This document shows, piece by piece, positions 61,400 through 64,000 of a stretch of DNA of 64,000 nucleotides. The notes beneath the pieces were generated by a model, which was given only the letters and a program-made list of their open reading frames with translations, ran no database searches and was not told where the DNA came from. Source of the DNA: Taxawa tesnikishii (nom. ined.) (Eukaryota > Ascomycota > Dothideomycetes > Dothideales); NCBI GenBank assembly GCA_030247885.1, contig JAPDRO010000001.1, forward strand, positions 868,001 through 932,000, given 5' to 3'. Within the stretch, counting starts at the first letter, position 1; every line of letters begins with the position of its first letter. Made by a program: the position numbers and the translations under genes.

Positions 61400-62019
61400 A
61401 GCACCATAGTCTGATAATGCATGTCGTTCGTTCTTTCTCCGCAAACTGAAGTGCTTTCATTGTTCCAACACTGAAAGTGCGGCCTAGCTTTTGAAATACT
61501 GTGGTAGCTTTACGTCTGATTAATGATCAAATTCAAAGGCGATTTGGCCTTTTCATATGGCGCTCCATGGGCCGAGGGAGGTTCCGCAGCCCCTCCATCA
61601 AGTTATCGTTACATACCCGCACTTGTGCTACGTCCCATGCCTCTGCTTACACTCCCTTGTTACGAGAAGCGCCACTTTTGCGAGACGCCTGCGCTGCATC
61701 CAGCAGGGTCCATTTCAAGCAGCATGCCGCTAGGCCGGATGTCCATACATAGTAGAGGGTGGAAAGGATGAAGTCGGAACCGTTGGTGGAGATCTCCGCA
61801 GGCGTAATCGGGTGGAGAAGAGACGCGCGGGAAGTCACATACCGAATCTGGACCTCTTAATTACTCACACTCACTCGCACACCGTTGTGACTCTCCAGCT
61901 GTCATGTTCACGGTTGTTGCCATTGTTCCGTACGAACTGTGACTACCTGTTACTCTACTAACTGTACATACCTTAAGTCTTTCCGCGAAGTCCGCGCACC
62001 TCCTCCTCAAAGCCTCATC
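61400..62019. other. Intergenic, promoter of MCT1
   Basis: 620 nt between MFS gene and MCT1, both on plus. An in-frame, non-ATG open frame precedes the MCT1 ATG but has no start codon. Nothing else seen. Confidence 0.5.
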
Positions 62020-63273
62020 ATGGACAGCTCCTACAAACGCCTCACCACAACTCTCTTCCGATTGGGTGCTAGCCAGGAGATAGTCCTTCCTCGGACGCTT
62101 CTAACTTCCGTCAGGCGCGGCAAGTATGGCCGCCGCTGGGCCTCATCCGCAGCAGCAAAGAAGCGACCACGAACTGCCCTTTTCTTCCCAGGCCAAGGCG
62201 TACAACGCGTAGGCATGACCGAAGACTGGCTATCTGCCTTTCCCCGAACCGTCAAGCCAATCCTCGATGAGATTGACGACACCCTTCAACTCCCACTCAG
62301 TAAGATCATTGCAGAGGGCCCGAGCTCGACCCTTACGGCGACCGAGAACGCGCAGCCGGCGATCATGGCGACGAGCATCCTGATATTACGCGTCCTGGAG
62401 CAGGAGTTCGGGTTCAAGACTACGGAACGAGTGGACGTGACGCTGGGACATTCCCTGGGTGAATTCGCGGCCCTAGTCGCGGGAGGCTACCTGCGCTGGC
62501 ACGACGCTCTCACAATGGTTCGCAAGCGTGCCGAAGTGATGGCGCGCATCTCGAAAGAGGCTTCCGAGCAATCAGGTGGTGAGGTGGGGATGGTAGCTGT
62601 GATTTGCGAGGTCGGCGACCGGGACCGGATGATCAGTGAGATACACGAATTTCTGGGTCATGGATCTCCCGGCCACAAGTCCGACAGTGGTCAAGACAGC
62701 GACCTACCCAGTGTAGAGCAAGTTCTCATTGCGAACATCAACAGCAAGAATCAGATCGTCTTGAGCGGGAATATCGAGAGGATCAAGACGCTGTTGACAC
62801 ATTTGGCGCAGTTTGGCGGGCACGATCCCCGGGCTGTAAGGCTCAAGGCAGACAGTCCATTTCACAGTCCCTTGATGCGGCCAGCTGCAGAGGTGATGGC
62901 ACAGATACTGGATCGTCCTAGTCAGGTCGCCAAGGACGAAGACGTGGTTACCTTCCCAGGTCTCATGCCGTGTATAAGCAATGTCAGCGCAAGACCTTTT
63001 GAGAGCAGAGCGCAGCTGAAGGACCTGCTCGCGCGGTCTTGCGTTGAAACCGTGCTGTGGCACAGCAGTATACAATATTTGCACCAGGAAGAAAAGGTCA
63101 GACGATGGATCGGAATCGGACCGGGGAAGGTGGGCAGGAATCTTGTGGGCAAAGAGGTCGGCATGAAGGGCGCTGTAAAGGGTGGAGGTGTCTGGGGAAT
63201 TTCGCATCCGAAGGAAGTTGAAGACTTTCTCAAGGCATTGAACGAGACGGAGAACATCGAAGAAGACGAGTGA
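62020..63273 (+). CDS. MCT1: Mitochondrial malonyl-CoA:ACP transacylase (FabD type)
   Basis: Transfers malonyl from CoA to acyl-carrier protein in mitochondrial type II fatty-acid synthesis, which supplies lipoic acid precursor. Single exon, 417 residues. Seen: basic presequence (residues 1-48, including RTLLTSVRRGKYGRRWASS), TALFFPGQGVQRVGM, the substrate-binding TENAQPAIMATSI, the nucleophile elbow GHSLGEFAALVA, RKRAEVMARI with the conserved arginine, VLIANINSKNQIVLSG, the second catalytic histidine in DSPFHSPLM, and the C-terminal GIGPGKVGRNL. The start at 62020 is the first ATG that gives a presequence. An insertion of about 20 polar residues (GHKSDSGQDSDLPS) sits between the two halves of the ferredoxin-like subdomain. 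Confidence 0.95.
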   Translation: MDSSYKRLTTTLFRLGASQEIVLPRTLLTSVRRGKYGRRWASSAAAKKRPRTALFFPGQGVQRVGMTEDWLSAFPRTVKPILDEIDDTLQLPLSKIIAEGPSSTLTATENAQPAIMATSILILRVLEQEFGFKTTERVDVTLGHSLGEFAALVAGGYLRWHDALTMVRKRAEVMARISKEASEQSGGEVGMVAVICEVGDRDRMISEIHEFLGHGSPGHKSDSGQDSDLPSVEQVLIANINSKNQIVLSGNIERIKTLLTHLAQFGGHDPRAVRLKADSPFHSPLMRPAAEVMAQILDRPSQVAKDEDVVTFPGLMPCISNVSARPFESRAQLKDLLARSCVETVLWHSSIQYLHQEEKVRRWIGIGPGKVGRNLVGKEVGMKGAVKGGGVWGISHPKEVEDFLKALNETENIEEDE

Positions 63274-63468
63274 CGAGGTCAGAATGGATGCGAAAGCAGG
63301 ACTGTTCACCTTTCCCTTCATGGAAGATAACCCTCAAACCGTTCACGTTTGCAACTGTCCCTGGTCAAACGTACAAGCTGGGTTCGGCTACACTTTGGTA
63401 GCGCCGAAAGAGTATAAGCTGTCGACTTTGCAGATTGCTTCAACAGCAGCTGACCAATCAGCTTTCAT
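63274..63468. other. Spacer between MCT1 and the tRNA-Leu-like gene
   Basis: 195 nt holding the MCT1 3' UTR and the 5' flank of the tRNA-like gene. No further signal. Confidence 0.5.
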
Positions 63469-63669
63469 GACGAGATGGCCGTAAGTTCACCTTACCACTT
63501 GCATTCTCAGTCATATCCTTACAAACCATCCAGGAGCGGTCCAAGGCGCTGTCTCAAGGTGTCCCGATTTTGAAACCGACAGTCCGAGAGGGGAAGCCAA
63601 GCTGACGTTCGAACTCACATCAAGTTCTAACGTTCTCAACAGGCGTGGGTTCGAATCACACTCTCCTCA
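63469..63669 (+). tRNA. tRNA-Leu(CAA)-like gene with intron-like insert in the D arm
   Basis: 5' acceptor GACGAGA (63469-63475) pairs 6 of 7 with TCTCCTC (63662-63668), discriminator A 63669, and TTTT at 63677-63680 ends Pol III transcription. TGGCC (63476-63480) is followed by a 53-nt insert (63481-63533), then GAGCGGTCCAAGGCG; without the insert this is a perfect tRNA-Leu D arm and A box. Anticodon stem CTGTC (63549-63553) pairs with GACAG (63578-63582), flanking CAAG and a short segment containing TTTTGA that can pair with the anticodon, as in normal Leu(CAA) introns at 37/38. The anticodon loop is one base short. The B box is GGTTCGAATC (63648-63657), T stem with one mismatch. About 50-60 extra nucleotides lie between the anticodon arm and T arm. 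Functional gene or relic is undecided. Confidence 0.65.
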
Positions 63670-63676
63670 ACATCTC

Positions 63677-63680
63677 TTTT
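63677..63680 (+). terminator. Pol III T-run terminator
   Basis: TTTT eight nucleotides after the discriminator base of the tRNA-Leu-like gene, the usual distance for a Pol III terminator. Confidence 0.6.
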
Positions 63681-64000
63681 ATTGTGTGTCTCCTCATACA
63701 ACAGCTTCCTTTATGGATATTTTGCACTTTCATATGATTCCAATCTCCGTAACACATGACAACCAACGCAAAGAAACGCCTGCACCGGCGTTGACTAGCC
63801 TATCATCCGACCTGTATGGTCTCCATTGGTTAGGGTACGTGCTTGTGCCCTTCATCTTTCGCGTTCCATGTTAACAAAGGAACAGATTCCTCACTTTCAT
63901 AGCTCTTCCTGATCCGAAGCGGCCGGCGTCCAATTACCCACCACGGAAATCGATTTTTCCTTTTCTGGACTAGGTGTTATGAAGTGTTTCTACGGTGGAA
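63681..64000. other. Window end, no gene seen
   Basis: 320 nt after the tRNA-like gene; no supported feature. Confidence 0.5.

Follow-up and report, generated by a model that had tools for sequence, protein, structure and literature searches.

The genes of nuclear tRNAs are known to carry introns mostly at position 37/38, where they are handled by the tRNA endonuclease. Inserts in the D or T arm are mostly supposed to mark pseudogenes, with exceptions in algae, according to PMC4090602. The window, that is, the whole stretch of 64,000 nucleotides that was analysed, holds a tRNA-Leu gene whose D stem is interrupted by an insert that looks like an intron of an mRNA gene. It is to be asked whether a spliceosomal intron can reside in a tRNA gene, whether other genes of the same genome share this feature, and whether such an insert is removed from the transcript or simply inactivates its host.

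The interrupted tRNA-Leu gene of the window

The insert in the D stem (63481-63533) is 53 nt long, starts with GTAAGT, carries CTTAC 11 nt from its end and terminates in CCAG. When position 63480 is joined to 63534, TGGCCGAGCGGTCC is obtained, and the A box and D arm of a tRNA-Leu are restored, just as an earlier note on this DNA had stated. A single-deletion scan, in which the intact paralogue of contig C10 served as the reference and for which the second insert of the gene had been taken out by hand beforehand, also returned 53 nt with the same boundaries, with an ambiguity of a one-base shift. This second insert (63592-63642), which lies in the variable arm, was absent from the earlier note. 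The features of the locus are as follows:

61939..63273, + strand: neighbouring open reading frame for a malonyl-CoA:ACP transacylase (MCT1-like), given as context only; MCT was confirmed by a PDB search
63469..63480, + strand: exon 1, tRNA-Leu(AAG)-like, with the acceptor 5' strand GACGAGA, T8 G9 and the D-stem GCC (from alignment to intact and split paralogues)
63481..63533, + strand: insert 1, intron of spliceosomal type at tRNA position 12/13 (GTAAGT...CTTAC...CAG)
63534..63591, + strand: exon 2, with the remaining D arm, the anticodon arm (C33 replacing U33) with its canonical intron, and the start of the variable arm (from alignment)
63560..63576, + strand: 17-nt canonical tRNA intron, position 37/38 (from comparison with the intact C10, C12 and C16 copies, its exact ends deduced from the anticodon stem)
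63592..63642, + strand: insert 2, located in the variable arm and homologous to the second intron of the C31 copy; donor GGAAGC, with the branch motif CTAAC and CAACAG kept
63643..63668, + strand: exon 3, T arm with the B box GGTTCGAATCA and the acceptor 3' strand
63677..63680, + strand: TTTT, candidate Pol III terminator

The anticodon had earlier been read as CAA, which is shifted by one base. Pairing of the anticodon stem CTGTC/GACAG, read by eye, places AAG at positions 34-36, and the intact relatives read CTGTC-TT-AAG in this region. ARAGORN shifts the anticodon as well, to CAA for the joined window copy and to TAA for the Leu(AAG) relatives, the intact ones included. In the raw window, neither ARAGORN nor Rfam at its gathering threshold called a tRNA, as is expected if the gene is interrupted.

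The copy lacks the conserved mature body, the U33 and the paired stems of a functional tRNA gene: 7-8 of its 79 mature positions are changed, C33 stands in place of U33, and the pairs 52-62 and 3-70 are mismatched as read by eye. Its B box is one base off the GGTTCGANYCC pattern. In addition, the donor of insert 2 now begins with GG, so normal splicing of this insert would not be possible. Since the mature body has decayed and the donor of the second insert is lost, the window copy, with one good intron and one broken, is probably an inactive, dead remnant. A dead copy had been foreseen as one outcome by the earlier note, and for the window locus alone this is probably correct.

Leu(AAG) relatives of the window copy

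The same assembly, consisting of 29.4 Mb in 34 contigs, was searched with positions 63440-63690 of the window as the query. Leu(AAG) relatives were found on C31, C10 and C8. A pattern of the Leu D arm led back to the C10 copy and, in addition, to intact copies on C12 and C16. The copies on C10, C12 and C16 have the usual 37/38 intron and no other. The C8 copy carries a GTAAGT..TACTAAC..AAG insert at a D-stem position identical to that of insert 1 of the window. The C31 copy possesses two inserts, GTGAGT..CTAAC..CAG in the D stem and GTAAGT..GCTAAC..CAG in the variable arm.

The second insert of the window is 68% identical to the second intron of the C31 copy, against a 95th percentile of 56.5% for shuffles. 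The first introns of the window, C31 and C8 copies are 59-64% identical to each other, slightly over their shuffles (95th percentiles of 56-58%). An introner element was also considered, for the window inserts only, and rejected; the query matched nothing beyond the Leu(AAG) relatives, and the near-identical copies by which such an element is recognised were not seen.

Split tRNA genes across the genome

Ten split tRNA genes with 12 inserts in total, including the window copy, were identified in the genome:

Leu(AAG), three genes: C1 (window), C31 and C8
Leu(CAG), one gene: C29
Leu(CAA), one gene: C31
Ala(UGC), two genes: C3 and C32
Arg(CCU), one gene: C29
Val(AAC), one gene: C15
Gln(UUG), one gene: C31

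The claim that insert 63481..63533 is of spliceosomal type and resides in a tRNA-Leu gene away from 37/38 is upheld, and it extends to nine further tRNA genes. The survey was based on two B-box patterns, which gave 148 sites; when the mitochondrial-type contigs C25, C26 and C28 are set aside, 140 remain. A reversed control of the B-box pattern gave 108 sites, and many of the sites are thus chance matches. Letters were at hand for 84 of the nuclear sites, and 83 of the 140 were examined, as the sequence of one (L137) ends too soon past the site. These 83 sites comprise 36 intact tRNA genes (called by ARAGORN in the unmodified sequence), 9 split genes and 38 that are neither. Seven of the nine split genes were recognised automatically. 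The others are the Val gene on C15, which was misread by ARAGORN as Trp, and the C31 Leu gene, which was missed by single excision because it has two inserts. The window copy is the tenth, its B box lying outside the search pattern; the B box GGTTCGANYCC is kept in nine of the ten.

None of the 38 non-tRNA sites was rescued by a single motif-based GT/GC-AG excision. A pattern for further genes split at 15/16 gave two matches, both already known, and its reversed control pattern gave two as well. Intact copies are present for the split Leu (three families), Val and Gln genes. An assembly error as the source of the inserts was rejected by inference, since the inserts differ from each other, are found on seven contigs (C1, C3, C8, C15, C29, C31 and C32) and have splice motifs in common. 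Among the intact tRNA genes, it was also observed that 32 of 36 have an intron at the canonical position according to ARAGORN, the exceptions being three Arg(ACG) genes and one labelled Arg(TCG).

Anatomy of the inserts and the effect of their excision

The 12 inserts are 51-57 nt long and are bounded by GT/GC-AG, except for the second insert of the window. The donors are GTAAGT, GTGAGT, GTAAGC, GTACGT, GTTCGT, one GCAAGA and the broken GGAAGC of that exception. A GT/GC donor with G at +5 together with an AG acceptor is present in 11 of the 12, again with the same exception, and a branch motif (CTAAC, CTGAC, TTAAC or CTTAC) is found 9-12 nt from the end in all 12. The combined splice motif, defined as GY..G, then YTNAC 9-12 nt from the end, then HAG, is present in 11 of the 12 tRNA inserts, including insert 1 of the window, as against 40 of the 895,244 intervals of 51-57 nt on both strands of the window; these 40 may include genuine mRNA introns. 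With the tRNA numbering done by hand, the inserts occupy seven positions: 5/6, 12/13, 15/16, 16-17/18, 19/20, 25/26 and the variable arm. None of these spliceosomal-type inserts is at the canonical 37/38 position. The use of seven positions suggests several separate intron gains.

When the inserts are left in place, none of the ten split genes is called correctly by ARAGORN (two wrong calls and eight without any). Upon excision, a tRNA with a cloverleaf is obtained in all ten. The expected isotype and anticodon are given in six, and in the remaining four the label is one base off: the three Leu(AAG) copies appear as Leu TAA or CAA, and Leu(CAA) appears as SeC(TCA), a label that its intact paralogue receives too. 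In all seven split genes for which an intact paralogue exists, a GT/GC..AG boundary is among the deletions by which the paralogue is best restored, the number of equally good placements being 1 to 14 per gene.

Constraint on the mature tRNA bodies

The split genes other than the window copy show 0 or 1 mature difference in 70-79 positions when compared with their intact relatives, and their canonical introns differ at 1-10 sites. The Leu gene on C8 against the C12 copy has 0/79 mature differences and 6/17 in the canonical intron; for Leu(CAG) on C29 against C23, the values are 0/77 and 10/30. Three further comparisons are uninformative as little has changed in them, with Fisher p values of 0.15-0.5: the C31 Leu gene against C10 (mature 0/79, canonical intron 1/17), Leu(CAA) against its intact paralogue (1/79 and 1/32) and Val against C12 (0/71 and 1/13). 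Arg(CCU) had no paralogue to be compared with. The comparison of a young split gene with an intact one cannot alone prove function after the insertion, and gene conversion could be another cause for the likeness of the mature parts.

For Ala(UGC), two places were hit when the joined gene was used as the query, and a pattern of the Ala anticodon arm led to the same two as its best-scoring candidates. Both of the genes so found are split at 19/20. Their mature parts differ solely in one base pair, G7-C66 in one and A7-T66 in the other, which is a compensatory change spanning the intron. Their spliceosomal introns are 69% identical, and 6 of the 16 sites in their canonical introns are different. 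One partner of the 7-66 pair lies in exon 1 and the other in the last exon, so that it is probably the joined Ala(UGC) product which has been under selection. Among the individual cases, Ala(UGC) speaks most strongly for constraint.

For Arg(CCU), a single full-bodied gene was found, and it is split (C29). In both the Ala and the Arg searches only the best candidates were scored, and a divergent intact copy could have escaped. The Ala anticodon-arm pattern found no Ala(AGC) gene either, though one is expected; thus, the pattern does not show every Ala gene. There is also a second, truncated Arg(CCU)-like copy (L134, C12:566010-566260), which is preceded by the intron-like acceptor TTGCAG. It looks like a truncated pseudogene and is probably a dead relic of the split Arg gene.

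Other polymerase III genes and terminators

Three U6 matches were observed (C19:390845-390903, C23:1835706-1835764 and C33:874318-874378), each covering positions 1-66 of the 105 of the model; the site labels L133 and L132 belong to U6 loci. In the two U6 genes that were read, those on C19 and C33, CTGCACT is separated from AAGGATGACAC by a GTAAGC..CAG intron; the two introns are 56 and 51 nt long. The sequences of these introns have diverged, and one of the two has the branch site CTGAC, which fits the motif used for the tRNA inserts, and the other CTGAT, which does not. The SRP RNA matched its whole family model with no interruption, and a general invasion of Pol III genes was rejected on this ground.

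The earlier note had held that an intron of spliceosomal type would be new for a Pol III gene. This is not supported, because the U6 and U3 genes of fungi are known cases (PMC5832005), and U6 of the present genome is another. The element that would be new is the tRNA as host of a spliceosomal intron, and not the Pol III gene as such.

A T4 run within 25 nt downstream is present in 7 of 10 split genes, as compared with 32 of 36 intact ones. No T4 is found within 60 nt in three split genes (C8 Leu, C15 Val and C31 Gln), as against one of the 36 intact genes; these three may thus be recently dead or dying, or may be transcribed differently. The D-stem insert of Leu(AAG) interrupts the A box.

A proposed explanation and its alternatives

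It is held here with good confidence, on the strength of the sequence comparisons, that the window contains a decayed Leu(AAG) copy, that spliceosomal introns have repeatedly entered tRNA genes, and that in well-preserved copies they are most likely removed by the spliceosome. The ancestral gene of the window would have had two U2-type spliceosomal introns, in the D stem and the variable arm, besides its 37/38 intron. Such introns would have been gained repeatedly, at seven positions and in seven isoacceptor families so far. Directly observed are the inserts with their splice motifs, the agreement with intact paralogues and the conservation of the mature bodies. From these observations, we infer that the well-preserved split genes are transcribed by Pol III and that the spliceosome would remove the inserts from the primary transcript. 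The cloverleaf could then form, the end-processing enzymes would act, and the tRNA endonuclease would finally cut out the canonical intron; the order of these steps, and the inactivity of the window copy, belong to the same inference.

The most economical explanation, by analogy with what is accepted for fungal U3 and U6, is that the spliceosome acts at least on the Ala and Arg precursors. It is on balance probable that it is even required for some tRNAs, Ala(UGC) and Arg(CCU) being made only from genes with spliceosomal introns in the D loop. Since each of the other split families also has intact copies, the split copies could be dispensable, except those of Ala and Arg.

The introns might instead land in tRNA genes, prove irremovable from Pol III transcripts and inactivate them, so that the split genes would be young pseudogenes. 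The window copy, whose mature body is changed at 7-8 of 79 positions and whose second donor is broken, would fit this, as would the truncation of the Arg-like L134, the three split genes without a nearby T4 run, and the existence of intact genes for the three Leu, Val and Gln families. This is nevertheless considered unlikely, because an insert is present in both of the Ala(UGC) genes found and in the sole full-bodied Arg(CCU) gene that was found, because a compensatory change is seen in the Ala pair across introns that have themselves diverged, and because the splice motifs are retained in 11 of 12 inserts. The T4 run kept within 25 nt in seven of the ten genes, the GGTTCGANYCC box in nine (one base off in the window copy) and the retained mature identity also argue against a different proposal, in which the split loci lie inside longer noncoding RNAs of Pol II and are spliced there, with the tRNA released or not. 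Though the absence of T4 within 60 nt in three split genes and the A box of Leu(AAG) broken by its insert are in keeping with transcription by Pol II, this proposal appears distinctly improbable.

Lastly, the inserts may be non-canonical introns cut by the tRNA endonuclease by way of a bulge-helix-bulge (BHB) motif, as in archaea and Cyanidioschyzon. Their D-arm and variable-arm positions do resemble the ectopic introns of those lineages described in PMC4090602. The BHB motif was tested at the junctions as a 3-nt bulge, a 4-bp helix and a 3-nt bulge; in the one strict register used, the 4-bp central helix was found in none of the 14 inserts (U6 included), the best having 3 of 4 pairs. As 11 of the 12 tRNA inserts have the full set of spliceosomal motifs, cleavage of this kind is judged very improbable.

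Comparison with known systems

Removal by the spliceosome, which is the explanation preferred here, has its closest precedent in the introns of fungal U3 and U6. The U6 RNA of S. pombe, for example, is spliced. U3 is called a polymerase III transcript in PMC5832005, and its genes in fungi have GT-AG introns with CTRAC branch sites at several positions, some with two introns. The same paper names U6 introns as a known case and states that, apart from U3 and U6, no small structured RNAs are known in which an intron is often present. The likeness is in the small structured RNA hosts, the GT-AG boundaries and the CTRAC motif, features which the two U6 genes read here display likewise. The difference is that here the host is a tRNA, many isoacceptors and positions are involved, and a second splicing system handles the same RNA. 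The split genes also carry a canonical 37/38 intron, but the inserts differ from it in their position and signals, having donor, branch and acceptor motifs.

In the nuclear tRNA genes of Cyanidioschyzon merolae and in those of algal nucleomorphs, ectopic introns likewise occupy the D arm and further arms, with several in one gene. As described in PMC4090602, those of C. merolae depend on BHB motifs and the splicing endonuclease, and the inserts of the Guillardia nucleomorph are 3-24 nt long. The inserts described here are 51-57 nt long and have mRNA splice motifs, with no BHB found in the strict register.

Outside mRNA genes, spliceosomal introns are also known in the rDNA of fungi. A title of 1993 reportedly speaks of an mRNA intron in nuclear 18S rDNA. 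These introns resemble the present ones in being outside mRNA genes, but their host is a Pol I rRNA and here it is a tRNA. No report of spliceosomal introns in tRNA genes was found in the literature covered, namely titles and the openings of abstracts, most subscription journals being outside its scope.

If the spliceosome clears tRNA precursors, the divide between mRNA splicing and tRNA splicing would not be strict, and two unrelated splicing systems would act in turn on one pre-tRNA. If the spliceosome is required for some tRNAs, the translation of certain codons would depend on the machinery of mRNA splicing, and the U6 RNA of this machinery would itself need to be spliced. The split genes, being very small and having unsplit duplicates with which they can be compared exactly, could also serve for the study of intron gain. 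The annotation of eukaryotic genomes could pass over such genes, since the detection of non-canonical introns by tRNAscan-SE 2.0 is described for archaeal tRNAs only in the available part of PMC8450103.

Additional observations in the genome

A Ser-like T arm with the acceptor 3' strand, whose 5' half is unrecognisable, occurs on the minus strand of C11 (L097, C11:419830-419840); it is possibly another split or broken tRNA-Ser. The assembly also holds two different mitochondrial-type sets of tRNA genes, one on C25 (80 kb) and the other on C26 and C28 (25 and 15 kb). No long reading frames were seen in the two mitochondrial-type stretches examined. The two sets may represent two mitogenomes, contamination or artefacts of the assembly; C25 is partly present in inverted duplicate.
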